Shown: positions 1-23,053 of the stretch, one piece after another
How the letters are laid out: every line of letters begins with the position of its first letter
How positions within the stretch are numbered: position 1 is the stretch's first letter
The notes under the pieces: generated by a model
What the model saw: the letters and a program-made list of their open reading frames with translations, nothing else
Databases searched by the model: none
Told to the model about the DNA's origin: nothing
Assembly: GCA_033439255.1 (NCBI GenBank)
Contig: CM065879.1
Coordinates: 290,501 to 354,500 of the forward strand
DNA: 64,000 nt
Reading direction: 5' to 3'
DNA from: Hericium rajendrae
Taxonomy: Eukaryota > Basidiomycota > Agaricomycetes > Russulales > Hericiaceae
Position numbers and translations under genes: made by a program

Positions 1-982
1 CGCGTGAACGCGGGATATCGCGCACGTGTCCAGATGCGGGGCCTGCTTCTGGAGCATTGCACGCGTGTCCGAGAGGTGGGGCGCGCGGGCGTGGTATTGC
101 GCACGCATACGGGCTGTGCTGCGCGCGGGCACGACGTGGTGCACGTGCGGGGTGTTTTGTATGCGTGCGGGGTCGTGCGGGCATGCGGAGTGTGCGCCGC
201 GCGTTGATGCGTGCGCCGCGCGTCGATGCGTGCGCGGGGCACTGAGCGAGCTTGCGGGGCGTTGGCGCGTGCACGGGGCATTGCGCAGGCGGGTGGGGTG
301 TTGAACGTGTGTGGAGGGGGCATGGGGCGTCAGCGCGGGACGTTGCGCGGGCGGCTGGAGCGTCGCACGCGTGTCCGGGGCGTTGCGTGCATGTCCAAGC
401 GTGGCCCGCGCGGGCTGGTCGTGGCGCGCGAGCGTGGGCTGCTATGCCGTGTCCGGGACGTGAAGGGCGAGCGCAGGGCATATCACGCACGCGTGGGGCT
501 TGGGAGGTGCATGCGGGGCCACGGGGCACGCGTAGTGCTTCTTGGGCGCGAGCATGGGGCATTGTTCTCGTGGGCGGGGCGTTACGAGCGTGCGGGGCTT
601 TGGGCGAGCGTGCGGGACCGTTGGCAATGGGCACGGACGATGTTTGAGTCCCGTTGCCAGGGCAACGGGACTCGACGGTGCGCGCTTGCGCGGACGTGGA
701 GGGCACAGGCGATGACGTGGCCGCCGGTGCGGACACGTTGTTGACAACGCGCAGACGGCGTGCAATAGTGCGTGTGCGTGGCCCGTGCCCGTGCGCGCGA
801 ACGGGGAAGCCGGGGCTTGTGTGTCGTTGAGGTCGTGCGCGGGTGACGTGGGGTTTTGGGAGTCGCGCATGGGACGGGGAAGCTGCGCGCGGGTGAAAGT
901 GGTGGTGAGGGGCACGACAGGGCTGGTGGGAGCGAGGAAGAGGCCGAGGGAGCGCGAGCGGTCGAAGGAGAAAGAAAAAAAC
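1..982. repeat. GC-rich degenerate minisatellite-like block
   Basis: The block is very GC-rich, with strong G excess on the + strand. Short words such as GTGCGGGGC, GCGTGCGGGG, GGGGCATTGCG and GCGTGTCCGGGGCG recur in degenerate form, so frames on both strands stay open by composition and yield Arg/Ala/Gly/Cys-rich translations with no recognisable domain. I see no splice signals or conserved motif that would support a gene. It reads as decayed repetitive DNA that may flank the AT-rich stretch to its right. Confidence 0.5.
646..673. repeat. Perfect 13-bp inverted repeat
   Basis: GAGTCCCGTTGCC is followed by the 2-base spacer AG and then its exact reverse complement GGCAACGGGACTC. It lies inside the GC-rich repeat block and has no gene around it. 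Confidence 0.8.
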
Positions 983-1015
983 GAGAGTATCGCTCGAAAA
1001 ACGAGCGATACTCTC
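983..1015. repeat. Perfect 14-bp hairpin
   Basis: GAGAGTATCGCTCG, a 5-base A loop, and the exact reverse complement CGAGCGATACTCTC. It lies at the sharp change from GC-rich repeat to lower-GC sequence, so it may mark an element end. A transcription terminator role is not implied in a eukaryote. Confidence 0.8.
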
Positions 1016-1249
1016 TGGTTTAGGGCAAAAACAACAAAGATAAGTTGTTTTTACTTACCTGATAGCCCTCTGCTTACTACTGATCCTCCGCACCGAAGTT
1101 GACGAGCTCGGGGTGAAGGAGAGAATGAGGCGGCGAGGGAATGGAGAGGGGAGTGACGAGAGATGAAAGATGGAGTCGGAGAGGGACGAAATAAGTCGAC
1201 GCGCGTTGACGTTCGGTGCTTCAGCCACCGACCCAGCGAAGTCATGTTA

Positions 1250-2380
1250 ATCGAGCTTCAACAAGTCTAATAAAATCGTATAAATTCAGAGAAAAAGCGC
1301 ACAGTCAAAGATGATACATTAAATTCAAACATATGAGAAATCTGATGATCTACTGTACTATATCTCCCTGAGCCGCAACATCAACTTAATTAAGTCTGCC
1401 AGCCCAATCCCTGACGCGACGCTCGGCAACGCCCGGCAGCCGCGATTCCCGGCTTCTCCCGGGATTCGTTTATAAGGCTCGCGCGACGCGCCTTTCCTCT
1501 TGCTCTTAACCCCCACCATGTCCTGCCACGTCGACGCTTCGTCGTCGTCGGCTGCTCGCTCGTCGTCATTGCTTCGTCCGTCGTCGTCGTTTATTACTCG
1601 TTGCTATCTCTATTAAGGTAAGGTTTTATTCTTTAATCTCGTATGTCTTGTGCTAATGCCTTCATACTTATATCAGTACCTTTGTATACTTACTAGGTAA
1701 GGTTTGTTATGTCTTATACTGATGCGTTAGAATTGTCTAGTACATTTTCGCTTTTCTCTTAGTTTGGTAAGCTTTACTATGTTTTCTTTGGAGTGTCTTC
1801 TAATATTAATATATATTTGTTTTAGCTATTTTCGCTTTTTATAAGAATGGTAAGTCTTAGTGTTCTATCTCTTATCTTTACTAATGCTTATGTTGTCTTA
1901 GATTGTCCTTTATGTTTAGTATATTATGTAGTATAAAGTTGTAGTATACTATTATGTTGTAGTTAGTCAATGAAAATTTGTTGTCTTCTCTCTGATTTTG
2001 TGTGATCTTCGTGGATGATTTACATATATCAATATGTAGATATCTGTCTACTTTCACTAAGTCTAGTATAACTATAAATTCAAATCATAACATTATAATC
2101 TATTAAGAATATGTAGAATATTTAGCTTATTGTAATCATCAGAATATCTATAGTATTTGTAGTGAATATAATCTACATAGCTACCCTCATAGCTTCATAG
2201 CTATGTCTTGTAGCTCTGTAGCTATCATAGCTATCTCTTATAGCTCTATAGCTATCATAGCACTCTATAGCTATCCTAAGTAGCTCTATAGCACTCTATA
2301 GATGATCCCCTTCTATGGCCATCTATAGAATAGGTGGCATAGCTATGGCCCTATGACATTTATATAATCTATATAGAGCT
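1250..2380. other. AT-rich gene-free stretch
   Basis: No gene is supported. A TATA-like TTATAAGG near 1470 precedes a short open frame starting at ATG 1518 that encodes a Ser-rich peptide of about 33 residues and ends just before GGTAAGG. After it come several GGTAAG words and TTAG/CTAG acceptors up to about 1860, then plain AT-rich DNA. The short frame could be a 5' leader or an upstream ORF, but nothing downstream continues it. Confidence 0.4.
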
Positions 2381-2392
2381 CTATAGCCATGT
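2170..2392. repeat. TAGCTCTATAGCTATC imperfect tandem repeat
   Basis: Words TAGCTCTATAGCTATC, TAGCACTCTATAGC and CATAGCTATG recur in close succession. Many are self-complementary (TATAGAGCTCTATA). The array ends just left of the first gene of the transposon cluster, which fits a subterminal repeat of that element, but I could not define terminal inverted repeats or a target duplication. Confidence 0.55.
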
Positions 2393-3094
2393 GGATTTTC
2401 TCAGATGTCCCAAGATGTGACCGCATTTGTGTGGCGAACGACTTGGTGTACTCGCCAGCATGCTTAGATGCTTGTCTGCATAGAGACGACATGAGGACAG
2501 ATACTGGACATACAGCAACAGTACGGACCTGGCCTGCACATCAGGAGGAGCCTCCGTCTTTGTCCACAATGCAGCATACTCCTCATATTGGGTCATCTTG
2601 TCCGGAGTAAGGTTGTTCATCACCTGACTCACTGCCCGGGAGTAGATCACAATGTGGGCTTTGCTTCCAGGCTGCGCACCACCAGATAGTACTTTGGCAT
2701 GCTCCATGATGGCATCGCGTTCTATGTGCTGGACTACGGCCTTGAGTGTCCATGTTCGGACATACTTAAATGAGTCCGCCTTCCGAAGCCGGTGCCTGCC
2801 ATGTTTTAGCAGCCACTCGTGTATCAACTATATAGCGAAAGTGAGTTAGCAGCGACAGCTCATCAACAGATGCAGGCATACCCGCTGGACCCTGGTCAAC
2901 TCAAGACCCCTGTATGAAAAACGGCCAAAGAATTGACCACCAGGTGCCTTGAGGTCCGTAATGATACAACGTCGTCCAGCCTTCCCGGTCTCCTTAAAGG
3001 CCTTCAACTATGTTTTGAGAAAGTCAATCTCGTCCTCCGACAGATCAGTCTTGACAGACTTGGACTTTTTCTGTGGAAGGGGACCTCTCGGCAT
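2381..3094 (-). pseudogene. KDZ-element companion gene, probably broken by a stop
   Basis: The reading starts at an ATG at 3094 (protein start MPRGPLPQKKSKS), runs through DLSEDEIDFLKT and then meets TAG at 3008-3010. The same frame continues immediately as LKAFKETGKAGRR. Further on, an intron with GTATGCC donor and CTAAC...TATAG acceptor (about 2829-2882) joins LTRVQR to LIHEWLLKHGRH, and the frame remains open to 2381 with a stretch like MTQYEEYAALWTKTEAPPDV. I recall this style of protein (short basic start, FL...LPxxxxA, then EY...W...PPxVQ) from basidiomycete KDZ-rich regions, but I cannot assign a function. It is divergent from the TET/JBP gene, with only about 170 bp between the two starts. 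The TAG could be a real nonsense mutation or an unrecognised tiny intron. The C-terminal end is uncertain. Confidence 0.55.
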
Positions 3095-3265
3095 TAAATT
3101 GAAAGTAGGAGGGGCGAACTGAGGGAAGGGGCGGAAGAAGGCAAACTGATCAGCAAATGGATTATAGTGCAGCGGAACGACATGGACTGACTTTTTTTTG
3201 TTTTTCATGTACGTCCTCAGACATACGGTCTTCAAAGGTAACCAATATGATCCGATCTTTGTCCA
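3095..3265. promoter_or_regulatory. Short bidirectional promoter region
   Basis: Only about 170 bp separate the ATG at 3094 (minus) and the ATG at 3266 (plus), so both genes should share one promoter. The stretch includes an A-rich tract (minus strand AAAACAAAAAAAAGTC). No clear TATA box is seen. In the forward frame the first upstream stop before 3266 is TGA at 3248-3250. Confidence 0.4.
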
Positions 3266-4864
3266 ATGCTGTACAGGCCGAATGAGGAATCCATCACCGG
3301 CAATCTCCTGCCGAAGCACATGTGGATAGCCGAATGCTTGGTGACAAACCTCTGCCACATCAAAGACCGCGACCAACCAGCCTTACTTTCCGCGCTGATC
3401 CTCATTTCCGCTCATTCCCCAAGTGAGATGTCCGAAGTCGAAGCAATCTCAATCTATCTGAAACACATGTTTCATTGCTATTTGGCTAACCACCAGAAGG
3501 TCGACTTTGCCAATCCTGCCCCGATCCCATACTGGATGCTGTCATCCAGCCTGCGCTGCGAGCTGGATTATATTGCCTGGGAGTTGGTTGCTGCTTTTCT
3601 AAACCGTAGTATGTGTATCAATTTGAAAATGAGATGATTGAAAACTGATGTAACTTCAGTCCGGATGACTTGGGATGCACAGCATTACACCAGCCGCATT
3701 CCGAAGAAATACACCGGACTCAACTCACCGACAGAAGCATCCCTACACCGGCGTTACCCGGGCCTAACCTGGGGTACCAACAATACCTCATGGCCTCTGA
3801 TTGATGTCCCAATGACGGTCTCGGATACACACACCAATCACCTGGTGTGGTACCTACCAGGTGTGCTGTCCCTGGAACGACAGGTGGCAACTCGCATTTG
3901 ACATCACCCGTCATTGTGTTGATCAATTGCTTGTGCAGGCCATCATGTTCAATGCTGCAAAGATCCTCGAGCCCCTCTTCCAAAGGAGCTGGACTGAAAT
4001 TTACAGAAAGAATGGGCCGACGAATCCAGGACCAGCAGGATCGGGCATTGTCAAGTCCGCGAAGCAAGCAGCAGGCTCGAGGTCCAAGGGAACGAGGTCC
4101 GAAGCCATGAAGTCTCTGACTCGTCATGCTCAAAACCTTTATCATAATCCGGTAGTCTGCACCTTGCATCCTGGCTTTGTAGATTTGTCCCCAGCATGGT
4201 TTGCACTCGGCCATGAGGTATGAGACCCTTCCTTCTATCGTCGATGTAGAATTCAGTGTGTACCTGGATTTCGCTGTAGGACACTCACTTTCCCCTCTAC
4301 ATGTCTGTCTCCCTCAAGACCCAGCGGGCAAAAGAATGGCTGCTAGCATTCCAGGAATCAGGCGCGATCATGAGTGCAATTCTTGGGGTCATATACCCAG
4401 AATTACACGAGGCTGGCATATGCACGTTGGAACGGCTCAGAGATATGCCGGAGTTTCGTGAAGTGATGTGCCACTGGACATCTGCATTTAGTGGTGTCTC
4501 GATCATCTCTAACTGGGCCACCATGCCGCATAGAGATATGGGAGGTCGCGCCGAATGGCCAGATCTCCTGGCGACGATCGGCACATATCCTGATGCAGAA
4601 CTGCACCTCCAGAATCTCAACCTGAGGTTTGCATACAGGTCCGGGACACTAGCTGCGGTCTGCTCAAAAATGGTAATCCATGCAGTCCCAGAATGTGAAC
4701 CGGACAGGGTGTGTTATGCATTTTGGATGAGAGATGCAGTGCACGAGCGCATGATCGTCAAAGCACCGGACTGGTGCAATGACAGTCAGTTCAACATCCC
4801 ATCCAAACCCGACGTAACGGACGAGTCATCGCAGACTCACGCATCATTACCTTTTTCATTGTAA
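3266..4864 (+). CDS. TET/JBP-type 2-oxoglutarate/Fe(II) dioxygenase (KDZ transposon cargo)
   Basis: This is a putative DNA 5-methylcytosine dioxygenase acting in the nucleus. Four exons join cleanly: 3266-3608, 3660-3883, 3939-4217 and 4280-4864, giving about 476 residues. The middle exons carry WYLPGVLSLERQ followed after the splice by AIMFNAAKILEPLFQRSW, typical of the region before the catalytic core in fungal members. The C-terminal half holds NWATMPHRDMGGR (HxD iron ligands near H366/D368), then MVIHAVPE (distal His near 417), then DRVCYAFWMR with the Arg expected to hold 2-oxoglutarate. I see no in-frame stop. The gene is head-to-head with a minus-strand companion and directly upstream of the KDZ transposase on the same strand, the arrangement known from mushroom genomes, where TET/JBP genes ride on KDZ elements. 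The second intron starts GTGGCA, a weak donor, but the join preserves frame. The N-terminus could extend through an unseen exon. The family call is confident; substrate and activity are inferred. Confidence 0.85.
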
Positions 4865-5020
4865 TAGCATATTCTTATCCCCGATGCTGTGAGATTCCTT
4901 GTGTCCCCACAATCCCCTTCCTCTGCTGTTCCTCCGTCTGCAGTTCTTCAGTACCATTTTCTTCAGTTGCTGGCCTGACTTTGCTCCCCCTTCCCAATAT
5001 CCTCTTTACCGCTTTAATAG

Positions 5021-8000
5021 ATGCCACCCAGAGTGAAGAAAGGCCGTGGCATATGGATCGTCATGCAAGAAGAACTTGAGACTGGGCGTGGAACACGGAA
5101 AGTCAGTCGGCCAGCGGCTCAACCCAAGCAAACCAAGGAGGCCGATGATGCCTCATCAGACCGGAATGGAAGCGGAAAGTGTGCCCGTGCTGACAGAAAG
5201 GGTGATTCGTCACGGACTACCCGCCAAGGATCTACAGCCAAGGCCGATGGAGCTGCACACGTCTCCCCAGAAGCTCCGGTCATGACCGAGCAAGACTGGG
5301 AGCTGTATCATGCCCAGTCACTTAAACCGCGGAAACCCCGTGTACGTCTCCAGCTTTGGAATTCATTTCTGTCCTAATATCATTCATGTAGACAGACCGA
5401 ACATGGCTGACCGAATGGACAGACACCGAAGATGACTACATTCACACGATTCTCCAGGGTGAGGCCCGAGAGGACACATGCGCCACAGTGCAATGCAAAC
5501 GGAAACCCGAATGGCGGTGCAAGGACTGCTTCTCCAGTCCGCAATTCTGCGCAAAGTGTTGTAAAAGGTGCCACAGTCATTTGCCATTCCACCGTGTTCA
5601 AAAATGGACCGGTACGCATTATGAGCCGGCTTGGCTCAGTGAACTCGGCGTTCTCATATATCTGGGACATGCTGGCTCACGCTGTCCGTCTATTGCTGGG
5701 AATGGCCATGATTCAGATAGCGCAGAATCCAGGACGACTGTTTCTTCCGGGATGACTCCTCGACCATCCAGCCATTCTATTCAAGACCTGAACCATTCAT
5801 TCACAGCATTCCGTTCACCATCAAGTTCTTCCTCCCGAGGCCCTTCACCCCCTGCCACGAATGACATCCTATCAGGTTCAGAGGATGGGTACTCAGAGAT
5901 CGGTAATTCAGAAGTTGTGTCACGGGCTGCTACGACTTGTCCGCCGTCTCCAAGTGAATCGACTACCACCAGCAACACCAGCAGGTCACATATCCGGTCA
6001 GTCTTAGAGACCGTCCATGTTGGTAGAGGCCACCGGAAGGAGAAAGAAGGGACCATTTCTACTGTGACTTCCCAGGAACCCCACATTGATGACTCTGACA
6101 CTGATACTCCAGCCACATCCATGCATTTACTCCCCAATCGTCGCATCACTAGTACTCATGGAGACACAGGGGATATTGGACGATCAGCCGGGCTGGTGTC
6201 CGATGTACTTTCAGAATCTGAGGCTGAGTCACTACCAGCTGCCTCCAAATCCATGCGCGGCCGCCTCATCACACGACCTCATCACAGCCGACAACCATCC
6301 CCATCACCACCCACACCCTTATCATCAACCCGAAGGATGACTACACGCTCACATAATGGAGCTCAGTCCAACGACGACCACCGAGGACCGGGGCCCAATT
6401 GTAGGACACCAAGTCCGGTGCCTACCATCCACTTTGACGAGTTCCAACGTGCTTCTGCCTACATGGCGAAGACTGAACAGGAAGCCATAGAATGTGGTGT
6501 CTTCCAGAAGGACCGGCCATGTACGCTAGCTGCGAGCCTCCTTGATGACGATGATTATGTCCATGAGGATGATGGAGACACCGATTGGGAGCATGTCAAC
6601 GAGGAAGATACCTTGGCGGAGGCTGAATGTCAGGCCCGGAGTCAGAGGCTCCATGCTAGCGAAGATACACCGGATCATATCCTGACCATTGTTGATCGGT
6701 CCGGAGTGCACGAATTAGGAGTGGTGAACTGCTATTGCTCTACTGATGAACCACTGCACCGTCAACTCCTTCGGAGCAATCTATTTCCAGCATCATTCCG
6801 TCGGCCCCAGACTGCGTTCACATTCCAGGTGTTAGAAGACTGTCGTTTGGACAATCTTGAATGCAAAACCTCATTTTTCCAGTTCTTCGGAAAGCTCCGT
6901 CGACTAACCAACCCTGCCTTTCCGGATTCGGTTCCTGTTGCATTGCATGCCTTAACAGTTCTCTCATTGGCACTAACACATTCTCATAGGACCATTATCG
7001 GGAACTTATGCGGTCTCTGTGGGTATGGAGGCACCTGCAGTATATGCGATGGCATGGTTTCGGTCATCGCACTGACATGCCAGGAAATGGAGACTTGGCA
7101 TTATTCTGTCCCACATGTCCTCAACCAGGAGAAAACATGCTGCCTGAAGACCGACTGTGAGTCCATTATTTCCCATCCAGTTCTCTTCATTGACTGCTGG
7201 TTTTCAGTGACCTCGATGCACGTATACAAATGCAGGATGGCAACTTTACTGCCCAGCTGGAGAAGATGAGAAGACCGGACAACGATTTCGCTTTGAGCGA
7301 TGGCACCGGGTTCATGGTCGAGAGCAAAAGATACCATCAACATCTCCGCAGCAATCGGGAGGTCAGGCAAGAGGTGCAACTAAGTAGCATATTGCATTAT
7401 GTGGTCGGTAACCGTTTTGCCTGCAACAGTGATCCACATGCAATGACCACCGCGCGGTGAATCAAGCCAATGCCCGGAAGAGTAATTTATACTCATCCGG
7501 TTTGGGGTCCGCTGCCTGCATGCATGGGGCATTTATACCACACACGACAGTGGACTTTCAAAAGGGTGAACGGTAGGTGTATCTCTCTGTCAGTCCACAA
7601 AGATAATGTTGTGCTGACAGATAGTCTGCAGTCAAGTCAATATGGATTACTCCGTCTGCCAAGGGTTGGGGTACAAGTCGCAAGGTCTGACTACAGCGAG
7701 ACTCTTGTATGACATCGCTTGCCAGTGGTTTGTCAATTTCTACTCACGTGTGGACCGGAGCGAATTTTTGGAACTACCTCCGGACATGGAAATTATATCC
7801 GGTATTGGTCTTTTCCACATCCACGGTCACCGGCAAGAATGCCTCGCTCGGTTTTCACCAACGTTCATTCCGGGCGCACGCCAGGTGGATGGGGAGATAT
7901 TGGAGACATTGTGGGCTCCTTTGAACGAGATCTCACGAAGTACGAGAGGGATGTCTATCTCTCACAGGAGGGAGATTTTGGATGATCACATGAATGACTC

Positions 8001-9533
8001 AAATTGGAAGAAGCTTGTACACAGCGGTATGCATGTTTCGATCATTGTATGAGCTCCCTGACCAGTACTGAAAGTCGGGAGCAGTGAAGTCATTGTGCAA
8101 GAAGTGGAAGAAGTCAGCAACAGGTCTCGAGATTGCTGAGACAGCATTCGCAGATTTTGATCACACAGTGCCTGACGACGTCCATGATGGATGGAAGAAG
8201 ATAGAAGAGACTGCACAGAAGAACCGCTTACGGGATATAAAAGCAATGGACGTATATGATCTGCAGATCGACGGACATATGCTCCCAGCCATCCTCAGCC
8301 TGGAGAACAATTGCTAATGTCATAGACAGTACCAGGAAAAGCAGAAATGGAAAACCGACTTGTGGCTGCAGTGGAGTCTGACAGGCTTCGTGGTTGCGCT
8401 GCATGGATTCACTCGGGACTCAAGATAGAAGAGGCTCAGTGCGTTGTCCGATTTACCATTCCTTTATTCTGACGGAGCCAATGGTCATGCTAGGCTACAG
8501 CTGGCAGCATACGTCCGAAGCGTTGGTAAAACTGCTACATTAAACCAGCAGAACACCATCGCAGAACGACGACGACGGCTGCAGACCCAAATTGATCAGT
8601 TTGAACGGCGGAGTCTGCCTTACATGTCCAAAGGCGAGGATTGGATCCCCGGATTCACTATCGGACGGATGATCGATGACGGTGCCGAATACGATGAACT
8701 ATGGGAGGACGTCCGCACTGAATATTCGAGACCTCTCATCGACGACGATGCAGCAATTCCGCCAGAGCGCATTGCCCTTCCATTGCCCTTCACTGTGGGA
8801 AAGGCACTGGTCACTACTCATGGACTTCACGGCGTGTTGGAACAGGAAATTGACCTTCGGATCGGGCAAATGAACGATGTGCTTAGTCAGCTCCGTATAG
8901 CTCTCAGCGAGAAGGCATTCCAGTTTCGGACGAAGGTGCGGGCGGCCCGCAGATCACAACGAAAGCGGACAAGGGCTTGGGCAGATATTGAGACTATGGA
9001 CAAGGTTGTCCAACAGCAGTGCCGTGTCTACAACCGAGCACGATGTGCTCTAAACAGCCTTGGGCTTGCAGATTCTGACACATTGAAGACTTATAAGGTC
9101 TTGCACCGGTCGGACTTACGGGCGCAGACATTTGTCATTGACTCAAGCATGCGGGGATCTCGTAATGAACCTCTTTCATGGTTCTGGAGACTGGGACGGA
9201 AAGGCGAGAATGACAGTAAATGGACAATGGAATGTGGGTCCGGTCTGCTGCATTCAACATGATCCCTGTCACTGATGGAGAATTGTAGTTTATCGTGTTC
9301 ACTGGCTACGGTCTCGGGCCCAGATGAAGCAATGGCGTGCGGAGCGGGAAGCCCTTCCAAGGGAGATGGCACGAACGATCAATTACTTCACCAAGAGGGC
9401 AGAACGGTGGGGAAAATGGAAGGCCAACAACACAGATCCAGGGCACCAAAGCTATGCCTCCAGACAGATGGCACTCTGGATTAGCATGGCCAATCAGGCA
9501 GAGAGTGCATTTGCAGAGGCATTGGCACAATAG
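5021..9533 (+). CDS. KDZ (Kyakuja-Dileera-Zisupton) transposase with CxC2 zinc-binding cluster
   Basis: This is a large DNA transposase of about 1330 residues in ten exons: 5021-5341, 5392-6930, 6990-7156, 7208-7373, 7430-7572, 7632-8016, 8075-8251, 8326-8438, 8494-9233 and 9289-9533. Domains in order: a basic N-terminus; a CxC2 cluster near residues 137-168 (CATVQC, WRCKDC, FCAKCCKRCH) followed by a W-rich tail; a long Ser/Pro-rich acidic linker (about 180-480); then the catalytic region. Its hallmarks are CPTCPQPGEN, DGNFTAQLEKM, LSDGTGFM, STCNDHRAVNQAN, VDFQKGERQVNMDYS, YDIACQW (catalytic Asp near 806), GIGLFHIHGHRQEC and DGEILETLWAPLNE (catalytic Glu near 870). The C-terminal part is Arg/Lys-rich and helical. 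All joins keep frame, but exon 5 opens with TGA (7430-7432) where family members usually have a sense codon before STCN. That suggests one disabling mutation unless splicing differs there. Promoter and ends of the element are not defined. Confidence 0.85.
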
Positions 9534-9817
9534 TACTTCAACAATGTTCATGCCTTTTTGATTTGTGGTATCAAACCCGGAGACGAAGAATGTGCATTAA
9601 AAACATCACAAAAGAATGACTGTACAAGTAATATTATTCTCAGGCAGATGGCTGGACCAAAAATGGAGCACGCCTCACGGAAGGTCGGATTGAATCAGGA
9701 ACAACACAGTATCTCAAGCCAGTCCCGGTCCTACTGTGTGTACGTTTAGTTGCAGCATGACTTCCCTTTTTGCTGTCCTTGGGTACATCTCACTGCAGTT
9801 GCTGGTGCGCCTCCCCT

Positions 9818-11381
9818 CTACAAACCGTCACACAAATTCCAGGTCTGCTGAACTCGCCCGAGACATCTCCGCAAGTAGTGCTTGCAGATCAACCTCTGAC
9901 GGGGTTTGGCGGCCTGAATGCGCCCTTGTGTGGGTTCTTTCAGGATCTCTACAAGCAATGTTAGAAGGAAGGGGAATGATATGTACACACATACCGACAA
10001 TGACCTTGTTAGCCGCAGGCTTCCTGGGACGGGATGGGCCGGCAATGCTCGAGGAGCGGGAGGCAGCCGGATGCTGTGATTTGGATATGGATCCTGAATG
10101 CCTCCCCCGGTGTTGTGCTGCATTCCGGGCCCTACGATTCTGAGGTGTGTTGTGGCTGCAACGCTCCCGACGGATGTCACAACCGATACAGATATTTGGA
10201 TGGCCCTCTTGGGTGGCACAGCAGTCACCGTGTTTCACGCAGCCATTGCATCGAAATGGCTATCCAGAACTCAACTGTCAGGAGGGGGGATCATCGGACA
10301 AGGAGATCCACCCACAAAAGGAATCTCGGTTAGGTACGGGTTGTACCAAGATTTCTTACTGGGCTGGCGCCGCCGATTATACAGGCCAAATTTGGGCGGC
10401 GGAGACGGTTTTCGGAGTACTTCGCGTGGCCGAAGACCAGACCGCTGCATTGAACGACCCACCGCGACCGCCCTAGATGCGAATGTCGATGCAGATTGTG
10501 ATGCGGGAACAACATCGGGATGCAGAACCTGACTTTCCGTGGAACTGGCCAATGAATGATAGGGCAGCTTGTGAACCATGCGTGACCGAGGAGGGCCAAT
10601 CTTGGCACCGGGGGGGAGGCCTGACTGGCTTTCCTCGGTTTCCTCGCTCTCTTCGCCTGAACAAGCACATCGTCAGTAGACTGATTATATGGGGAAACTG
10701 TAAGGGATACATGCGGGCAGGGAGCATACCCAGGTCGGACAATGACTGCATTGCTGGAGCGTCACAGGCTGGTCTAGTGGGGGGAGTCATTCCCTGATTT
10801 GTCTCATCCCCATTGCTGCACCACGAATTGACAAACCAATCGACGAGGGAGTCCGGAGTCGAATAGCGGACGGCATCCTGTGCAGGGACAAGTAATTCCG
10901 CTATCAGGGACAATGTCAGGCTACATCCTTGCAGATTACAATAGCGAGCTTACGGTTCTCCCACCAGCGCAGGCCCAAATCCATATTTTGCACCTTGACG
11001 TTCAAATTGCGATCCTGAGGATCAAGAAAGCTTGCGAGCTGGCGTAGATCGAATAAGCCCTCTGGGTCCGTCTGGCTCTGCAAGAAGTTGAGGTAGCGGG
11101 CTGTGTGGCGCATATACCCGGGGGTCAGCATCATCATTTCCCTGACACCTGCCTCCATGGCCGACTCCCTGATCCTCTTTGCTGAGACCTGAACATAGTT
11201 TAGCAACGTGGAGACCAGTGAATTGAAAAGAGCATACCATTTCTTTTGTGAATTCTGTCTGCCAGGCACGCCGTGCATGCTCTGACAACTGAACAGGTGC
11301 TCTGCTAGCAGCATGAAGTGCGAGCCCAACACGCACCGACAAGATCAAGTAGCTGGCATTCAGAACGTTGACACTGTCCAT
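9818..11381 (-). CDS. Transposon-associated protein with C-terminal Cys cluster (Z family, copy 1)
   Basis: I do not recognise a named family. The model begins at ATG 11381 (MDSVNVLNASYLIL) with exons 11238-11381, 10925-11188, 10730-10877, 10316-10656, about 9994-10259 and a last exon ending at 9818 or 9828, giving roughly 400 residues. The N-terminal half ends in LGLRWWENRKLAIVICKD. The middle is Pro/Arg-rich and disordered (GLRPREVLRKPSPPPKFGLY). The C-terminal part has a compact cluster FRCNGCVKHGDCC, then ICIGCDIRRERC, eight cysteines in C-x2-C-x5-CC and C-x2-C-x6-C spacing, which should bind zinc and perhaps DNA. The last intron can be read with two acceptors, giving different C-termini. 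One reading ends ALLAEMSRASSADLEFV, which looks the more natural. It is divergent from the coiled-coil gene at 11870. A second, decayed copy lies at 19404-20439. Confidence 0.6.
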
Positions 11382-11869
11382 AGCAGCCAGAGGTAAGAAA
11401 GAATGAAAGTCTGAGAGAGAGAGAGTGACGCAGAAGGGGATCAAGATGCACAATTGGACTGCCAACGTGTCACCCATGCAGTGATTGTCATGTGTTACGT
11501 CATCGCAGGCGTGGACCGCAAGAGGTTTGAAATTTTGTTTCAAGCCACCATTGATCAGATGACTGATGTTGCGTAGTCCGGTGGGTCTGGATCATTCGTG
11601 TTTGTGTTGTCATTTTCGGACCAGAACCCCACGCCCCTAATCTGATCGGACCTACCTTGTGCATGCCCGTTACACGCGGTGTTAAGAGAGGTTCCGCATT
11701 ATCACAGCTTCCATCTCCCCTTCCGCCCCTCGTCCTCACATCCTGCAGCCTACCGTCCTTTGCTCAACTCTGGTCGTGAGCTCCGGAAGTAATATGGGTA
11801 TGCCGCATATTACATAGGTCTTTGTGTCTTTCTGACGATTGTTGAATAAATCGTACAATCCTTGCGGTG

Positions 11870-12781
11870 ATGCCTATCAACACACATCGAGGATTTCAAG
11901 CTTTGGCGCATGACACAGAGCTTGTTGGTGAGAAGAATGTGGCCGGAGACATGAGTGGCCAGGATGCAGCGCCGAGCAGTGTGCCACCGCTTAGTCAGGA
12001 GTCGGACTGGCAGTTGAAGGAAGGCATGGTACGTGGGATCACATTGGACATCAGCGAGAGGCAACTGACAATCTTCAGAACCTGATGATGGAGTTGGGTG
12101 ATCAGTTCTCCGAAGTGGAGGGGAGCCAGGACAATTTACCGTATGTAGATCAGGTTTTCGGTGTGACATTTGACGTTTGACCATATTGTAGTAAAACAGA
12201 TGGCACCATCGATTCATTACCTCCAGTCCGCACCGAGTTAACTGACAGGGGAATGCCAGGGCATACTGACGGACGCCCCCTTGCCGACCTGGCCAATGCA
12301 GAGTCCAATGTCGGAGATGTGCCGCCCTCTCAAGAGCAGGTTCCGACGTCTCAGGATGTTGAAATGGAGGATGGCTTACGCACCCCGGTTCCACATTCTG
12401 CATCGGTGTTGGCGGCCCTCGGCCAGGTGAGTTGAGCCAGGTGAAGATTTGAGAGACATCTCGCTGATGTTCTTCGTAGGATCTTCCCGATAGCGAATTC
12501 CTACCCCCGCCTCCGAGAGCACCGGTCGATGAGAAATCCCGGATTATCTGGATCAAAGGTGCACTTCGTGGTATGGTTCTTTCTCACTTTTTTTCGGAAC
12601 CATATTCATTTGCTATCTAGCTCATATCAGGTGGATAACGGATCGGAGAGAGTCCCTGCTCCGGGAGTTGCGGGACTTGGAATCTCGGGCAGCTCAATTA
12701 GAGTTATTGAGTGCCTCATATACCATCCCTCCGGATGCCCAGGGTGAGAGAAACGCAAGCGAAGGCTCGTCAAATGTATGA
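11870..12781 (+). CDS. Small acidic protein with C-terminal coiled coil, transposon-associated
   Basis: No recognised family. Exons 11870-12028, 12079-12140, 12192-12426, 12480-12570 and 12621-12781 join in frame to about 235 residues. The first two thirds are polar and acidic (EGSQDNLP, DVEMEDGLRTP, LPPPPRAPVDEK). The end has an Arg/Leu/Glu-rich helix, WITDRRESLLRELRDLES, with heptad character. The last intron is read with acceptor CTATCTAG rather than the later ATATCAG, because only that keeps frame. Start ATG at 11870 follows a stretch with no clear TATA. It is divergent from the Z-family gene, a pairing repeated at 19404-22473. Confidence 0.5.
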
Positions 12782-13792
12782 TAGCTTTGGTGCTGAGTTC
12801 AGCTAAGCGCCAACGATTGAATATCAGTATGGAAGTATGGATCTTAGAATAGGAACTAGGAAATTGTAAGAAATTTCCAATGGGGACACGAAGGTGAGAC
12901 AAAGTTAGGTTCGCGGTAGGTCAATGGGACACAATGGGTTGGCGGGGGTACTGAGTAAAACCGTGTTCATACTCCGGCCTCATTCCCTCGATATAGTGCT
13001 GTCTTCTCAGATTATGATACCCAGGTATTCCCATGTATATGCGAGCGTATCATGTCCACTTCCACAGAGCGCACCTGGTCCATACACGACCCTAACCTTG
13101 CAATTTAGAGAGAATGAAACTGAAAAGGCGTGCAGAAAGAACCACCATCTCGATATCTCTCAGCGGGTACATGATGATGCCCACCATGGGACCTTCACAT
13201 TGGCTCTGTCTAGATATCCAGTGCGACATCCTTTCTAACCAAGCCCACGACGATGCAGCGGATTTGCCAGAGACCCCCAACACTGTCGATGTCTTGTAAG
13301 GTTAAGCTATAGCCGCGCGTGCTCCACATCAGCTAGGTTAGAGTGAAGACAAATTGGCCCAAGCTTGCCGGAAGCTGGGTTACTGTCCGGACATGGGGGC
13401 CTGCAGGGTTCCCGCCAAGGAGAAAAAATTGGGAGAAAATCTGAATTTCAGCGGATCAGGTACACAATCCCGACGAAATTGTACAACATCAGGCTGGAAC
13501 CAAAACTTCATCGGCACGGATTCGGGGCCTTCCGACTGGGCTGTCCGGACATGGGCTTTAAAAAAATTGACCCCGGTTGTATACCAGTCCATACCAATTA
13601 TACGGGGTCTTCTCATGCACCGCCGCATCATGCAACTGTCAATCCGGTCAAATGTAGTCATAACGCCACACACCTGTCACCCTGGCCAGCTGTTTATAAA
13701 CTGCTCATCCATAGTCCACGTTTGTTAGTTTTTCTCTGCCTCGACGACTACCCTTACTTATTGTTGCTATATCCGTCACCCGAAAATACATC
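12782..13792. other. Intergenic region with a 15-bp direct repeat and F-box promoter
   Basis: No gene is seen. CTGTCCGGACATGGG occurs at 13383-13397 and again at 13541-13555, 158 bp apart. A TATA-like TTTATAAA near 13690 lies about 100 bp before the F-box gene start. Confidence 0.4.
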
Positions 13793-15777
13793 ATGTCAAC
13801 CGGATCAAGTTTCCAGATCTTGAGGCAAGTCCGGCGGGATCTTTCATCCATCAATGTTTGGATTACTGACTACTCGCATCCCCTTCCAGGATTCCTGTAC
13901 ACCCTGACCCAGTTGATATAGAACAGCAGCGAGCTGCCATTGACGAGGAGCTAAACCAGCTACTCCTCCTCACCCTCGATGCTCGTGCCCGGCGAAACAG
14001 ATTATCACCCCTGATCCGCATCCCCACCGAAGTGTGCACGCGCATAGTCCATTTTCTCGCTGCCAACCAGCGGCCGGGTCCCAAAGACCTAGGGTGGGTC
14101 AATGTCACCCATGTCTGCCGCACTTTGAGATCCAGGGCACTCGAGGATCCAAGCCTCTGGACTACCATCAGCGACGGACTCCGTACGCCATTGCAAAACG
14201 CAATGGTCATCCGGTCCCGGTCTCTGCCCCTCTCTTATTCTATCACCTACACCAGATGGAACCCCCCTACCTTGGATACTGTCGAGCTGCTCTCCAGAAC
14301 AATCCATCGCATCCGCGACCTTTCCCTCCAAAACTTTTTTGTCAGCAGCATGCAAAACCTCTGGCCATCCATGGCCCATCCAGCCCCGATGATTGAATCG
14401 GTGATTTATGCGCTCCCTAGATGGTCCTCCTATCAAGGTATCGATATGCTCCCCGCTGACCTCTTCGACAATCATGCTCCATTGCTACGTAAGATGACGC
14501 TTCGTTGCGTCGTCCCGGTGTGGTCCGGGAGTATTCTACGTGGTCTCACCAATCTCCACATTAATAATAAATCCACCCGATCAGATCTGCTAAATATTGA
14601 TCCTGACCACAAGATTATTTTCGACCATCCATCGGACTATGTAGCATCTGAAGAGGCACCTCCTGTTGCTCCACCCAGCGTCAATGCTTTGAGAGAGATG
14701 CTCGAAGCTCTCGGTCAGATGTCCAACCTTCAAATGCTGTTTCTCTCCCACTGCTTCCCTCCTCTCCCCTCCCCTCCTCCCGTCATGCCTGTGGTCACAT
14801 TCGGTTCTCTACAAAAATTCACATGTCAGGACAAATCATTCCTGCACATGGCGCATGTCATCAAGCACATCACTGTACCTCCCTCTTGCAATATCCTCAT
14901 CCTCGGCGATCACCCTCAGGCCGGCGAATTTGCCCCACTCACAACATTCATTGATAGCCACATCTCACCCCATCCCCTGAGCATGCGCATCGGTTTTATC
15001 TCTTATAACCTAGCCTGGGACATCTACTTATCAGGATATCCTCCCTTCTCCGATCACACCGGCCATCCCACCTTTGACCCAGATCTCCCGAACATCTCGG
15101 TTGTCGTGTATGCCAATACCGATGGGTATGACGATGAGAGACCTCCAGAGAGGCGCCCCATGATAGAGGACCTCAATCATGTCCCAAGCACAGAGACCAA
15201 ACGTCAGATACGGCATCTTGTTCTGGACTTTGGAGAGGACCATGGTTTGGAACACTGGGACAATTACATCATCGAGAAGATCACTTTTCGCGACTGGCTC
15301 TCTGGTTTCCATGCCTACACCGGCATTGAAACCATCGCGGTGAAGGGCGACAGTGGCCGTACGCTCTGTATGGCTTTAGCCGCACCCCGCTCCTTTATGC
15401 CCCCTCCTCCGGAGGAAGATGAAGTCGAGCCGATCACAATCCTGGACTCAGATGAAGTCGACGAGGTCCCAATGCCAGACTCGTTCCCGCACCTCTTCAG
15501 AAATCTATTACGTATTGAGTTCATGGAAGTCGATTTTAATACAAGTTACCCCAGGCCTCGGGATAGTCCGTGGTCCATATATGAGGTTTCTCGTCCTTCC
15601 TATGCCATTGGCTACATTCTCAAGCAATCCCTGTCCCATCGCTATGCGGCATTTGGGACACGGCTCACTCTCGTCATCAAGCATTGCACAATCACGATCA
15701 ACCAGGTGGAGGAGCTGCGAAGCCTTGCAGATGTAGAATGGGACTATCTGCAGTCTCCGTTGACAGGAGAGGATTGA
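13793..15777 (+). CDS. F-box domain protein
   Basis: Two exons, 13793-13824 and 13890-15777, give about 639 residues. The start is MSTGSSFQIL followed by a helical stretch DEELNQLLLLTLDARARR. Then comes an F-box-like segment with LIRIPTEVCTRIVHFLA, VNVTHVCRTLRS and PSLWTTI, the usual pattern P-x-E-v-x-x-x-I plus W-x-x-V-C-x-x-W. The rest is a long Leu-rich region as in basidiomycete F-box/LRR-like proteins that recruit substrates to SCF ubiquitin ligases. The first intron appears to be GC-AG (donor GCAAGT at 13825), since only that join puts the second exon in frame. No stop codons are seen. Target unknown. Confidence 0.75.
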
Positions 15778-15846
15778 AGGGTGCGCGGAACCTGTGGGGG
15801 AGCCTGGCTCGAATTACGAAATTTGGTTACCACATGTATTTTTAAT

Positions 15847-16785
15847 TCACGCATCGCCGAAAGGAACTCCCTTCTCACTTATGATGTAAACATTGAGCAT
15901 TCCTCCAAGTAAGAGCTCACCCCTGTTGCCTTGCCGGTGACCCCTGCATAGTGCCAGCGGGGTGACCAGTTCAATACATGAAAGTAAGTAATCAATCCTG
16001 GAGCGACGGGCAGCTTTGCGAGCCTTTTGCTTTGGTATACCAAACACCGGTGGCGGGGCTGGCCTCCGCAGGGTAGCATGAGGACGAAGGCCATCTCGGA
16101 CCAATGCGTGGTCAACCGGTGTGCTGTCCCGTGCACGGTCAGAGACTCTGCACGGTATCGGGACAATGGGTGCAGGCCGAGGGTGTTACAGTCCAGGAGC
16201 AAGCAATAGCTCTGTGGTGCGAGGCATGGAATAGGGGGTGTCGAGTTGGTGCGGGGTGTCGAAGACATCATGAGATGCGGGAATGTGTCGATTGCAGGAG
16301 CTTCATCTGGGGCGCTGGTTGCGGTACTCGCCTCGCGTTTCGTGGCTTTGTATCCCTCCCAGTATGTGTCATTTCTGCCTTCTTTCCTCCCCATCATTAT
16401 CCCTGCTTCTAGTCCTTCCTCCCAGACCCCATACTCTGCCTCTTTGCATATGTGCATGAGGAAGTCAGTGTCGATCTCATCGATTGACATGGCGAGTGAT
16501 GCGGGGGTGCTTACCTCAAGGCTACCCTGCTTAGTGCACTCGCTCGGACCCTCCTCATGACGTGCGCTCCGTCCTGCCTTCGTGCTTCCCACCAACCCCT
16601 CACGCCCTCGCGAAACCTGACTTTCGCCCAGCCATCAGACCTGCCTCGTAGCCGTTCTGGATCGCGGTGGTGACGATGTCGTTGTGGAGCATGCGATCGA
16701 CGAAGTCCGGCTCAGACTCTGGTGATTCGTAAGTGGCAGCCGTATGGGGCTCACCCAGTTCGATGCCAGTCGTCGGCGGTTTCAC
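15847..16785 (-). pseudogene. Z-family C-terminal exon fused to duplicated EAG-GRK exons
   Basis: The stretch at about 15990-16160 encodes IVPIPCRVSDRARDSTPVDH, then ALVRDGLRP and LRRPAPPPVFGIPKQ, which matches the second Z gene (IVPAPRGVSARTPDNTPVDR, PAPPPVFGIPKR) residue for residue over most of its length. The DNA there is also clearly similar to 19410-19560. Upstream on the same strand are two related short units, NGYEAGLMAGRKSG and EEGLEAGIMMGRKEG, which look like a duplicated exon. I cannot join these into one intact frame: the Z-like frame has a TAA just upstream. Most likely this is a composite, decayed locus. Confidence 0.45.
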
Positions 16786-16959
16786 ATCGTTGTGCGTGGG
16801 TGCGGGGCATTGTTAGACGCAGTCCAGGCCCCTACAGGGAGCGAGTTCTCGGGCTGGAGAGATGACCTTTCGAGGTCCGATTCAACAGGTGTCCGTTGAT
16901 ACCCCGAGCAGGGACGGCACATGCGAAGATTGACGCAGCCTAGCACCATTATGACGCTG

Positions 16960-17770
16960 TTCTGGTGAGTTTGTCGTGGTAATTAGCTGAGAGAAACTGA
17001 AACTTACAAGAAGCTCGCAACAAGCAGCTTTTTTCGGCCCAAAATTCGACGCCAGATTCCCCACGGCGAGCGGCGAGCACCGTCATTAGGCCAAATAGTC
17101 GGAGTCGATGTCCGTGAACGTCAACATTTACAGTCGCGCGAGCTCTGGGTGGAGCCCAGTGTGATCTGCGGTGTCATTCTCGTGAGTTCTTTTTCATTAT
17201 TAGCCGAGGTGAATTGGAGCTCACCTTGAGGTCGCCAATAACAGTTATTTTGGTTTCAAAAATCGGGCCCAGAGGCCCCGCGGCGAGCAGGGACCGCTAT
17301 CATTAGAGCAAATGTTCGTATTCCGCAAAAGTTCACGCGCTGTCAGCAACGGCGCAGGCGTGGGGCGCAGCCCCGCGCATGCTTGATGCTGGTGAGTGTT
17401 CCGAGCGCGCGGTTTTGACGATGTTTCAGTTATTGACTTGATGTCTTCGTGGAAGGCGTTTGTCGCCTCGGAGTTTTGAGGTCCAGGCTCCCGAGGCTTG
17501 CGGCAGTTGGACGTGGTAGACGGAAGATATTCGTTGGCAATGCGAATGGACTTCCGTTCACACTGATCCGAGCGCTGGGCGTAGCCCAGCGCGTGCACTG
17601 ACTCGCTATGTGACGCGGTCAGTCTCTTTCATCGAAATGAACCGAGGGGAAGGTGGACAGACCAGGAGCTCGAAAAACAAATTTTTGTTGCCCAGACATG
17701 TGGCTTTCAGGCCCCGCGGCGAGCAGCAGTCACACTCCGAAGATGAAGTGCTCATCGTCGTGGTGAGCGG
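16960..17770 (-). repeat. About 216-bp degenerate tandem repeat carrying exon-like units
   Basis: Blocks beginning GTGAGT near 16960, 17180 and 17391 repeat at about 211-220 bp. The word CCCCGCGGCGAGCAG or a close variant recurs near 17041, 17275 and 17712, so spacing is one or two repeat units. On the minus strand each unit reads as a small exon followed by a GTAAGT/GTGAGC donor, a CTAAT-like branch point and a CACCAG/CACGAG acceptor. Two units encode similar peptides, one with PWGIWRRILG and one with PRGLWARFLK, the second with a stop. This looks like exon-level tandem duplication in a decayed minus-strand gene. Confidence 0.5.
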
Positions 17771-17849
17771 TGGCGACACTGGGCGTATGTTCGCACGCGC
17801 TTGCAGGGCACATCATGGAGTTAGAAGTAAAGATTGGGGGGAGGAGGCC

Positions 17850-18780
17850 TTTGCGCACGGGGATAATGTGGTACTCACCTCGTATTCCCGCTCTGCCAGT
17901 CCCCTCTTGCGCGGCACTTTCGAAATCCATACATCCGCTGTGCCGTCGCATTGCTGTCCGCCTGAGCACCTTGAGCTAGACATCTCGAGGGCGTCATCGT
18001 CAAGTATGTGGAGGCGGGACGCGTCTTCGCTCATGGCGCCCGCTCTCCGCTGTTAGCGCGTGCACCAGAATGGCACCATTGTGGGCGCTCTGCAATGCCC
18101 GGGCGTGCTGAGTACGGGTCATGTCTGCGATTCGGGCGTCACACGCTCCAGCTGGACATCGAGCGCGATGTGGTTTCCCAGCGTCCGTTGCATGCCCTGC
18201 ACACTCTCGCATTCTTGAATCCTTCGACATCACGTTCTATCCTCTCGATGACGCTGCTCACGGTGTGCATGTGTTCGAATCGGACTGGAGAATGTGGTGA
18301 GTGCCGCGTGCTTCATTCTGAGAAGGCGGTCTTGTTTACCATTTCCCCTTTGCGTACCCTACTGATCTCGCTCGCCTACAGACTCTGCGCCTGATCGCAT
18401 ACCCTTCCGCAGGACCAGTCTGGAGTGCCGTCCGCCAGTTCCAAACCGAAGGCGTCATCGTCAAGTTAGATGCGCGGATCTCATCTGGCATTCAGTTTCT
18501 GGCTGCTTTCGTCGCGCTTTTCAATCTCCCATGCGCTGACGCCTTTCCCGGATGAGCCGGTTCGGAGTTCGGCTGGATTCGACACCATGAGTGAGTTGTA
18601 CTTTGCTTCGCGGAATGGGATCTTGCTTACCATTTCTCGTGCACATAGCCTGCCAATCTCGCTCATCCACCGACTCTGCCCCTGCGCCCGCGTCCTCGAG
18701 CGCCGTCTGCCAGTCTCGCGCACAGCTCCATGGCATGCCAAGGGCGTCATCGTCAAGTTCGAGAGGCCGCGCCTTGCTTG
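17850..18780 (-). repeat. Three tandem copies of an LDDDA exon/intron unit
   Basis: GGCGTCATCGTCAAGT occurs at 17990-18005, 18451-18466 and 18743-18758, each preceded by a similar block with ACTCACC- or TTACC-type donors on the minus strand and similar words such as CTGATCTCGCTC / CCAATCTCGCTC. On the minus strand the units encode LDDDALEMS, LDDDAFGLELADGT and LDDDALGMPWSCARDW. The order of exon, intron and neighbouring sequence is shared, so this is duplication of an exon with its flanking introns. No complete reading frame links the three. Confidence 0.5.
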
Positions 18781-18789
18781 CCATGCAAC

Positions 18790-19400
18790 CGCCGGGCATC
18801 ACGTCCTTTCCCACATGGGTGTTGGACATGTTCGGGGGTCGTTTGTGTGCGCTCGCTCTCGCGGTTCAAAGCGGACTGGAGGGGGGAGACTGGCGAGCGC
18901 TGTCTTCGTGGGCACGCGATGCGTTTGCGGGGGTCCAAAACGTGCCGGTCTTCACCGGACCACCAGACTGGTGGGTAGAGTTGCGGGGACTTGCGAAGGG
19001 ACGGGACTGGGGGCGTGGTGCTGATTAGCACTGGTCATGTCATCTGCGCGGACTCCACGGTGGTCCCCGGGCTCGTTGGCGGGCATATATGGGCGTGTGA
19101 TGGGGCGGAGCGGGGCGGGCATGTTGTTCAATGTCTCGGCATGCGTATGCGATGCAAGAGGGGTGGGGTGCTTACCCGAGGTACGTGTCCTCCCTGCATG
19201 TTGCTCGCGGTGTGCTCACCTCCGTACGTGGCCCAAGGCCGCTCTGCGACTCGTTCTCCACGGCGATGGGATATGTTGCATGACAGCATAATGTGCACGA
19301 GTCGTTGGGTCGGGGGAGAGGTTTTGGACACGGGATAGGTCGTGCGGGGTGCAGGATATGGGTGAATTATGATAAATGCCTAGCTACTATTACATGCAAG
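18790..19400. other. GC-rich gap between decayed units and the Z copy 2 gene
   Basis: Open frames exist on both strands, but none shows a domain or consistent splice structure. It is probably further decayed duplicate sequence. Confidence 0.3.
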
Positions 19401-19403
19401 AAA

Positions 19404-20439
19404 TTAATCAACCCTGGAGCGACCGGCGGCTTTGCGCATCGGCCGCTTCGGTATACCGAACACGGGGGGTGGGGCTGGCCTCCGCAGTGCAGCAAGCGGT
19501 CGAAGACCCTCTCGGACCAATGAGCGGTCGACCGGCGTGTTGTCCGGCGTGCGCGCGGAGACTCCGCGCGGTGCCGGAACAATGCGCAAAGGCTGGGGCA
19601 GCCGCCCTCCGGAACTCATCATTGCGGGTCGCTGCTGCCGCGCGGAGGCATGAGATTGATGTCCCATGTCGACATCCGGAGGCGTGCGACCCACAGCAGG
19701 CTGGTCCGGCTGGTCTGAGCGGTGCGATGTCAGTATAAAAGCAATGACAGAAGAGTTGAGGAGGGATACGTACTACTGGTAGCACGATGCCCTTCATATT
19801 GCAGAGACTCCGGCGACTCTGCAAACAACCCGCGCCAGGCGTCAGCGTTGATGGGGCCTGCGAGCGTGAGCTCCGGAGGAGGGAGGGTATAGGCGGAGGG
19901 GGTGGGATCATATATTGGATAGACCAGGTCTTGTGGAAGGTGAAAGATGGGGAAAGATGCGTCAGAGATCTGTACTGTGATGGACATCAGCTGACGCATT
20001 TGTTCATGACAATCAGGAACGCACCATCCTCCCACCAGCGATGACCACAGAACTGCTCCGACCTTGCCATCCAGTATGACGGACTGAGACCATCGATATA
20101 CGCGTAATCGGAGAGCGCGTGGAGATTGACGTTCTCAGGCTGCATGGACGAGAGGACTCGCATGGTGTTGCGCATGAACGAGGGGACGGGGACTAGTGTC
20201 TCCTCGGACACATTGGCCGTGCTCGCTCGAATGGCGTCAGCATGCTCCTACAAAGCACTGAATAGAAGCGGAGATGGTAGCCGAGGGTGACACACCAAAC
20301 ACTGGATGAAGCCATGCACCCAGGCGACACGCATGCCCGGAGGCATCAACGGGGATGTTGCCCTTGCAGCAACAAGACCAAGACCGACCGAGTCACAAGC
20401 AGCGGAGTACGCTGCATTGAGGTCCGCAATGGAAGACAT
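19404..20439 (-). pseudogene. Z-family gene, copy 2, frameshifted and lacking the Cys cluster
   Basis: ATG at 20439 opens MSSIADLNAAYSAACDSVGL. An intron near 20240-20290 (donor GTGTGT, acceptor TTTGTAG) leads to EHADAIRASTANVSEE, then FCGHRWWEDGAFLIVMNK, which parallels LGLRWWENRKLAIVICKD of copy 1. Right after this the frame meets TGA, while the next frame continues as MSITVQISDASFPIFHLPQD and on to GPINADAWRGLFAESPESLQ. No canonical intron of normal length links the two, so a 1-bp deletion near 20005-20015 is likely. After a further intron the last exon encodes TPVDRSLVREGLRP and PAPPPVFGIPKR and ends SRVD then TAA (19404-19406), without the zinc-binding cluster seen in copy 1. It is divergent from the coiled-coil gene at 20793, the same layout as copy 1. 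Confidence 0.55.
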
Positions 20440-20792
20440 GATAAAGCTAGGATGAGCGATGATTGAAAACAGAGACCGCAGGTTAATAGTGACTGAGGAA
20501 GGCAATGATGTGGGGGGAGGGAAGGAGACCGAGCGCGGACTTTGATGCTGCTTTGTTTGTCACGTGTTGCACATTTCATCGTCACAAAAATGATGTCACA
20601 TCGTGCTGATGTAATCCGGTTCTGACCGTCCGGTCCTAGTCAAGTCGGTCCGGCCGGACCAGCCCGGTTACCTGGATCTTATGTCATCTAACCTTAACCT
20701 GACTCAAAACTGACTTTGTCTCAAACCCGAATCAAAGGGCAGGCATTCCGTGGCATGCGGCAACTCCCGGTCGGAGATGGAATGACTTTGCG

Positions 20793-22860: not shown

Positions 22861-22876
22861 GGGTGACCGAGCTGCA

Positions 22877-23041: not shown

Positions 23042-23053
23042 CCAAAGTCACAC

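Follow-up and report, generated by a model that had tools for sequence, protein, structure and literature searches.

A 32-kb TET/JBP-carrying KDZ transposon of Hericium rajendrae, its copies and their record of CpG decay

Background

TET/JBP and KDZ are said to have been the subject of a 2014 paper in PNAS. KDZ elements of the TET+ Kyakuja kind are now in print: Kyakuja-1_LB and Kyakuja-2_LB of Laccaria bicolor are described with 5'-CA..TG-3' ends and 7-bp target duplications (Kojima 2025, PMC12730594). According to the same text, the Coprinopsis enzyme CcTet oxidises both 5mC and 6mA, and its Gly331 and Asp337 are tied to these activities (PMC12730594). Transposons of Coprinopsis and Laccaria are reported to bear oxidised 5mC (PMC12730594; PMC8889193), CpG-biased change has already been reported for basidiomycete repeats (PMC4014442), and both Kyakuja and F-box are mentioned in PMC12062965.

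The locus analysed here lies in a stretch of 64,000 nucleotides of H. rajendrae DNA (the window). An initial annotation of that stretch, made from its letters, had called a KDZ transposon carrying a TET/JBP DNA dioxygenase at 3266-9533 and had noted that such linkage was known from mushroom genomes; the published TET+ Kyakuja bear this out (PMC12730594). The gene pair is indeed there. As the limits of an element, these coordinates fall short, since they enclose only the middle of a 32-kb-class unit that carries more genes and occupies C2:275773-313562.

The element and its copies

The mobile unit is about 32.1 kb long; two copies measure 32,079 and 32,084 bp and, over the stretches compared, are colinear with the window and with each other. 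Both ends are present in the window copy, which spans 37,790 bp with nested insertions included. Seventeen loci resembling that of the window were chosen from at least 172 KDZ matches in the genome (46.8 Mb, 19 contigs). All 17 fetched loci align to the window, 16 of them at about 99% identity (97.6-99.7% for single pieces) and one, L024, at 95.7%; the 16 are referred to below as the close copies. Rightward, homology ends at window position 23062, where the right ends of the other copies coincide. Leftward, it breaks at 2408 because a 3,082-bp element is nested there, and the left half of the transposon resumes beyond this insertion (C2:287386-289823), continuing to a left end at C2:275773. 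The total thus exceeds the 32.1-kb unit plus the nested insertion by about 2.6 kb, and this surplus is located outside the window. Two other placements of the left edge were considered and rejected: truncation at 2408, which the remainder found past the nested insertion contradicts, and an end within C2:277994-278793, where there is none.

The nested insertion (C2:289826-292907) has the ends CATCTGA../..TCAGATG and a 2-bp duplication, TC. Its part at window positions 1500-2407 has 45 repeat matches genome-wide (69-100% identity), many of them stopping at 2407. Its ends resemble the CATCA..TGATG ends given for PlavakaB in the text of PMC12730594.

The termini of the transposon itself are 5'-CACACAATACATTG on the left and CACACCATTGACTG-3' on the right, that is, of the 5'-CA..TG-3' type. 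Flanking target duplications of 7 bp are identical in 11 of the 13 same-orientation pairs for which both ends were read (additional single ends were seen whose partners were not read); the window copy agrees at 6 of 7 bases, and the pair designated C3b has unrelated flanks. The one mismatch in the window copy, TCAGGAT against TCGGGAT, is itself a change of the CpG-decay type. The eighth flanking base is mismatched in 6 of the 11 exact pairs on one side and in 8 on the other. We assign the element to Kyakuja on these ends and the duplication length. A 334-bp subterminal inverted repeat begins 12 bp inside both ends, and its arms are mostly 97-99% identical; the outermost 12 bp of the two ends agree at 6 positions. 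With up to 2 mismatches allowed, the genome contains 30 matches to the right-end 20-mer and none to the reversed control. Nine guessed left-end sites were checked: ends were absent from those of C4a, C5 and C3, and were located elsewhere for C4a and C3 and not found for C5. On C16, a left end at 833509 and a right end at 923448 lie in opposite orientation and have AATATAC as a common 7-bp flank, such as an inversion splitting one inserted copy would leave.

Table 1. Features of the locus, in window positions
Feature	Position	Strand	Basis
Part of nested insertion splitting the window copy, foreign to the element	1..2407	.	ends, repeat matches, element resuming beyond
In-window portion of TET+ Kyakuja-type element	2408..23062	+	copy alignments, coinciding right ends
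5' part of gene divergent from TET, limits approximate; 3' part in left half past nested insertion	2408..3382	-	open frames
TET/JBP exon 1	3266..3608	+	predicted splicing
TET/JBP exon 2	3660..3883	+	predicted splicing
TET/JBP exon 3	3939..4217	+	predicted splicing
TET/JBP exon 4: HxD, distal His, Arg, equivalents of CcTet Gly331/Asp337, Trp361	4280..4864	+	profile, alignment
CxC2-KDZ transposase, ten predicted exons	5021..9533	+	profiles, exons predicted by reading
Premature stop TGA in the window copy's transposase	7430..7432	+	copy alignment
Approximately delimited gene with Cys-rich stretch; 30% to 19987-20241 over 91 aa	9828..11390	-	open frames, comparison
F-box-like protein, 635-aa open frame	13870..15777	+	24.0 bits, just below Pfam cut-off 24.3
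Open frame, 55% over 65 aa to 19388-19582	15879..16634	-	open frames, comparison
Gene, limits approximate, partly related to genes at 9828..11390 and 15879..16634	19408..20470	-	open frames, comparison
Subterminal inverted repeat, right arm, 334 bp, 97.6% identical to left arm of C10 copy	22717..23050	.	alignment
Right terminus, ..CACACCATTGACTG-3'	23049..23062	+	coinciding right ends of copies
Right target-site duplication TCGGGAT (left copy TCAGGAT, beyond window; 6/7)	23063..23069	.	flank reading

The TET/JBP gene

The predicted four-exon TET/JBP gene (3266-4864, plus strand) runs from an ATG at 3266 to a stop at 4862-4864, with introns at 3609-3659, 3884-3938 and 4218-4279, and encodes 476 aa. 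A slightly longer spliced sequence of 481 aa, used as the query, matches the Pfam Tet_JBP profile at 62.3 bits (E 4.1e-17; cut-off 34.9), and residues 101-461 of the same query match the solved structure of Coprinopsis CcTet, 7vpn, at E 1.5e-30. The catalytic residues align with those of CcTet: H366 and D368 form the HxD motif, H416 is the distal His and R425 the 2OG-type Arg; the roles given to the individual residues follow in part PMC12730594. A TET/JBP-type dioxygenase with exactly these motifs is what had been read from the letters initially. The equivalents of Gly331 and Asp337 are, by alignment, G371 and D377. This putative 5mC dioxygenase accordingly retains the Fe/2OG-binding residues along with the Gly331/Asp337 equivalents, and the Arg that precedes HxD is replaced by Trp in the window copy.

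The reading frame of the window TET gene is open, yet six residues differ from those of most other copies. One of the six is Trp361, next to HxD: the residue is Arg in most other copies and in CcTet, and Gln in L021. In three other close copies (L010, L011, L013) exon 4 is split by insertions. Stops are absent from the covered TET sequence of 15 other close copies (L009 is uncovered, L011 and L013 are covered in part), and the diverged copy L024 carries them. The absence of stops from close copies is expected because TET has a single site at which CpG decay can create a stop, and KDZ has 14; it was dropped as an argument for constraint and likewise has no bearing on whether TET is a mere passenger (see below).

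The KDZ transposase gene

The TET stop and the ATG of the KDZ gene are separated by 156 bp on the same strand, in agreement with the spacing of about 160 bp given initially. The exon model of the transposase was predicted by reading, with the end of the last intron set by eye; its introns are at 5342-5391, 6931-6989, 7157-7207, 7374-7429, 7573-7631, 8027-8084, 8252-8325, 8439-8493 and 9234-9288. Single exons match CxC2 at 85.0 bits and KDZ at 94.0 bits, and the joined exons of the corrected model raise the KDZ match to 135.1 bits over profile positions 51-217 (cut-off 26.6). Profile searches of the kind suggested along with the first reading of the locus thus place both Tet_JBP and KDZ above cut-off.

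The premature TGA of the window copy is a C-to-T change at a CpG, in a codon that specifies Arg in 16 of 16 close copies and Gln in L024. Six of the 16 other close copies likewise have a transposase interrupted by a premature stop. A frame break near 7456 had been read as a small insertion, a reading rejected in favour of an intron (7374-7429) followed by this private stop. If the open spliced frames of the initial annotation were meant to include both genes, the statement holds for TET and fails for the transposase. With its transposase broken and its TET damaged, the window copy therefore most likely cannot mobilise itself; having kept both ends, it might be movable by protein supplied from elsewhere.

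Pairing of TET/JBP and KDZ genes in the genome

A KDZ match lies within 6 kb downstream, on the same strand, of 36 of the 46 Tet_JBP matches in the genome and of 34 of the 38 that exceed the cut-off. Random placement (1000 placements) predicts 0.56 such pairs, calculated with 127 KDZ matches (those matching only the first part of the profile, and those unlisted, being left out) and with the sizes of C11 and C12 entered as rounded guesses. With 36 pairs observed against 0.56 expected, the pairing is not by chance; many of the Tet_JBP matches are copies of one family, and therefore they do not count as independent events. The association extends beyond this family: the genome has several diverged families in which TET adjoins KDZ, and their TET is 36-41% identical to that of the window.

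Three further observations concern the genome-wide matches. The two best Tet_JBP matches, C1:1705501-1705935 and C12:2182408-2182842, have no KDZ within 6 kb among the matches used, and are possibly stand-alone or host TET genes. Six matches below the cut-off (27.5-30.2 bits; C2:33965, C2:3866436, C4:1122998, C9:549710, C4:348987 and C14:67218) also have no nearby KDZ and could be of the divergent PE type described in the text of PMC12730594. At C1:9106-23931, C17:25249-40071 and C18:396816-411630, near contig ends, a TET-KDZ pair is accompanied by a second KDZ gene, the distance between them varying little from about 14.45 kb, as in subtelomeric duplication.

Cargo genes

The F-box-like gene of the right half is matched in the left half by an inverted paralog (46% identity over 334 aa of the C-terminal part), whose own F-box match is only 12.9 bits. 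Counting the window, the right-hand gene occupies 17 places (95-100% identity), and about 19 places have left-type paralogs. More distant relatives, at about 23-40%, are mostly on C13 and C8, which suggests that the F-box-like gene was captured from a host gene family. Compared with solved structures, the F-box-like protein found nothing (best E 0.45). Outside the element, at window positions 34072-34764, there is a weak F-box-like relative (28% over 234 aa).

For the gene divergent from TET, the two frames in the window gave no Pfam match, and the exons in the left half gave only DUF4028 at 13.6 bits (cut-off 25). The three minus-strand genes of the right half share partial kinship (Table 1). 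Kinship was also suspected between coiled-coil-like genes near the two ends, for which tblastn at E 0.01 gave no match.

One could imagine a two-part anti-silencing kit, with TET directed against the methyl mark and the F-box-like adaptors of both halves turning a host ubiquitin ligase on silencing proteins. We regard this as a long shot; if true, it would explain why a 32-kb DNA transposon has kept both F-box-like genes.

The mutational record

Over 2408-9960, the 16 close copies and the window (17 rows; L024 was dropped) depart from the majority sequence by 401 substitutions, 384 of which are C-to-T or G-to-A, 320 of these at CpG. Counted by site, 305 are C-to-T or G-to-A (246 at CpG) and 17 are of other kinds. 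Individual rows stand at 0 to 50 substitutions from the majority, and three of them are at or close to it (L019 at 0, L017 and L018 at 3 each); the family has therefore moved recently. The window copy has a minority base at 31 sites in the same interval (sites at which more than 80% of the other close copies have the majority base), all of them C-to-T or G-to-A, and at 22 of the 31 all other covered copies agree with the majority. The ratio of observed to expected CpG is 0.81 in the element as against 1.10 in 23071-64000. Such a scar is expected of cytosine methylation or of a RIP-like process, and the pattern of CpG decay suggests that the copies have been methylated.

The same signature is found in other repeats. 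In a control KDZ group with no Tet_JBP within about 10 kb, of whose 10 members 9 were fetched, 34 of 35 polymorphic sites are C-to-T or G-to-A and 27 are at CpG in seven close rows, and 90 of 111 and 45, respectively, in all nine; this control is small, since three members have a TET-KDZ pair at a distance of about 12 kb and certain rows are identical to each other. The corresponding figures for a second TET family are 36 of 38 sites and 32 at CpG in eight of its nine rows, and 57 of 73 and 39 in all nine; for an RVT_1 repeat (6 copies) they are 60 of 68 and 34. Because the TET-less KDZ group and the RVT_1 repeat have decayed in the same way, there is no sign of protection by TET: a sparing of TET+ copies was sought in the substitution spectrum (spectra were compared, not rates) and none is visible. 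CpG-directed decay acts on the repeats of this genome generally. The comparison suggests that the copies, though carrying TET, were methylated and gained no visible protection relative to TET-less repeats.

Within the family, CpG changes in TET comprise 29 missense and 12 silent, against 24.9 and 15.9 expected (p 0.39); those in KDZ comprise 95 missense, 41 silent and 8 stops, against 96.2, 41.5 and 6.4 (p 0.81). These changes are neutral in both genes, as expected of copies decaying in place. The test is a weak one because any copy of a DNA transposon should decay neutrally once inserted, and it says little about selection between moves.

What might TET do for the transposon?

The most likely explanation is that the locus holds one copy, decayed but with both ends retained, of a large DNA transposon of the Kyakuja type (KDZ), whose TET would oxidise 5mC on element DNA and so ease silencing. 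The directly observed part of this explanation comprises the ends, the target duplications, the copy family, the gene pair, the nested insertion and the C-to-T decay at CpG; the remainder can be pictured as follows. The CA..TG ends would be the substrate of the transposase, with joining staggered by 7 bp. TET protein would work in trans and oxidise 5mC, perhaps also 6mA, on element DNA, and some copies would thereby evade methylation silencing for long enough to allow transposase expression and movement. Copies that stay put would be re-methylated and lose CpGs by deamination, as the window copy presumably did. Counting against this explanation, a RIP-like process would leave a similar scar, one of the 13 end pairs (C3b) has unrelated flanks, the like decay of TET-less repeats gives no sign of protection, missense and silent CpG changes in TET follow the neutral expectation within the family, and TET is split in three close copies.

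An unlikely alternative, though one to be taken seriously, is that the element picked up TET a single time and has since replicated it as an inert or no longer useful passenger that does nothing to silencing today: CpG changes make up a similar share in TET+ copies and in the KDZ group with no near TET match, the missense-to-silent ratio within the family is the one expected without selection, the TET gene of the window has six missense changes, the conserved Arg before HxD among them, and insertions split the gene in three other close copies. The weakness of the within-family test takes force from the second of these points, since any transposon copy decays neutrally after insertion, and a passenger does not readily account for the retention of TET beside KDZ in diverged families (36-41% identical). 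A different proposal retains an active enzyme and changes its purpose: TET would write oxidised bases (5hmC, 5fC, 6hmA) as a persistent mark, used for instance in choosing targets or in timing movement, rather than undo silencing. The oxidised 5mC reported on Coprinopsis and Laccaria transposons (PMC12730594; PMC8889193) is in line with such a mark, and continued CpG loss in TET+ copies suits it better than it suits full demethylation; we nevertheless consider it quite improbable. Finally, the notion that TET is a host gene adjoining the transposon by chance is scarcely credible and already refuted by the ends and the copies: TET genes outside such elements may exist, the two best Tet_JBP matches (C1:1705501, C12:2182408) having no KDZ within 6 kb, but the window TET lies inside the element ends, a segment that includes it is repeated at many places with about 99% identity, and 36 of 46 TET matches are paired with KDZ.

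The explanation that we prefer, an element-borne TET that eases silencing, bears on a standing question, whether a transposon-borne TET alters the methylation, and hence the fate, of its own copies. The element makes this question testable in one genome, now that exact ends, size, gene load and mutational record can be given for a recently mobile TET-carrying transposon.

Comparison with known systems

The enzyme itself compares with CcTet of Coprinopsis cinerea (PDB 7vpn, 8jkk) in its catalytic domain, HxD, distal His, Arg and the equivalents of Gly331 and Asp337; it differs in being distant in sequence (E 1.5e-30) and in the window copy's Trp, where CcTet has Arg before HxD. With Zisupton, which carries TET in some fungi, the element shares by name the KDZ Pfam family, but Zisupton makes 8-bp duplications and this element 7-bp ones (PMC12730594).

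The closest relatives are the TET+ Kyakuja of Agaricomycotina, which likewise have a KDZ transposase and a TET/JBP gene inside the element, 5'-CA..TG-3' ends and 7-bp duplications, and whose TET is of the AG (CcTet-like) type with the Gly/Asp pair (PMC12730594). Kyakuja-1_LB and -2_LB are described as having no terminal inverted repeats, whereas inverted repeats of 334 bp lie 12 bp inside the ends here; the absence printed for two Laccaria families is perhaps not a rule for all Kyakuja (PMC12730594). Unlike the published TET+ Kyakuja, this one is 32 kb long and carries two F-box-like genes; the word F-box is absent from the main text of PMC12730594. We take the element to be a further family of the TET+ Kyakuja kind, of which a named equivalent may exist in PMC12730594, the comparison being with the text of that paper alone. 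Its F-box-like cargo and its long inverted repeats extend the published picture of TET-carrying elements.
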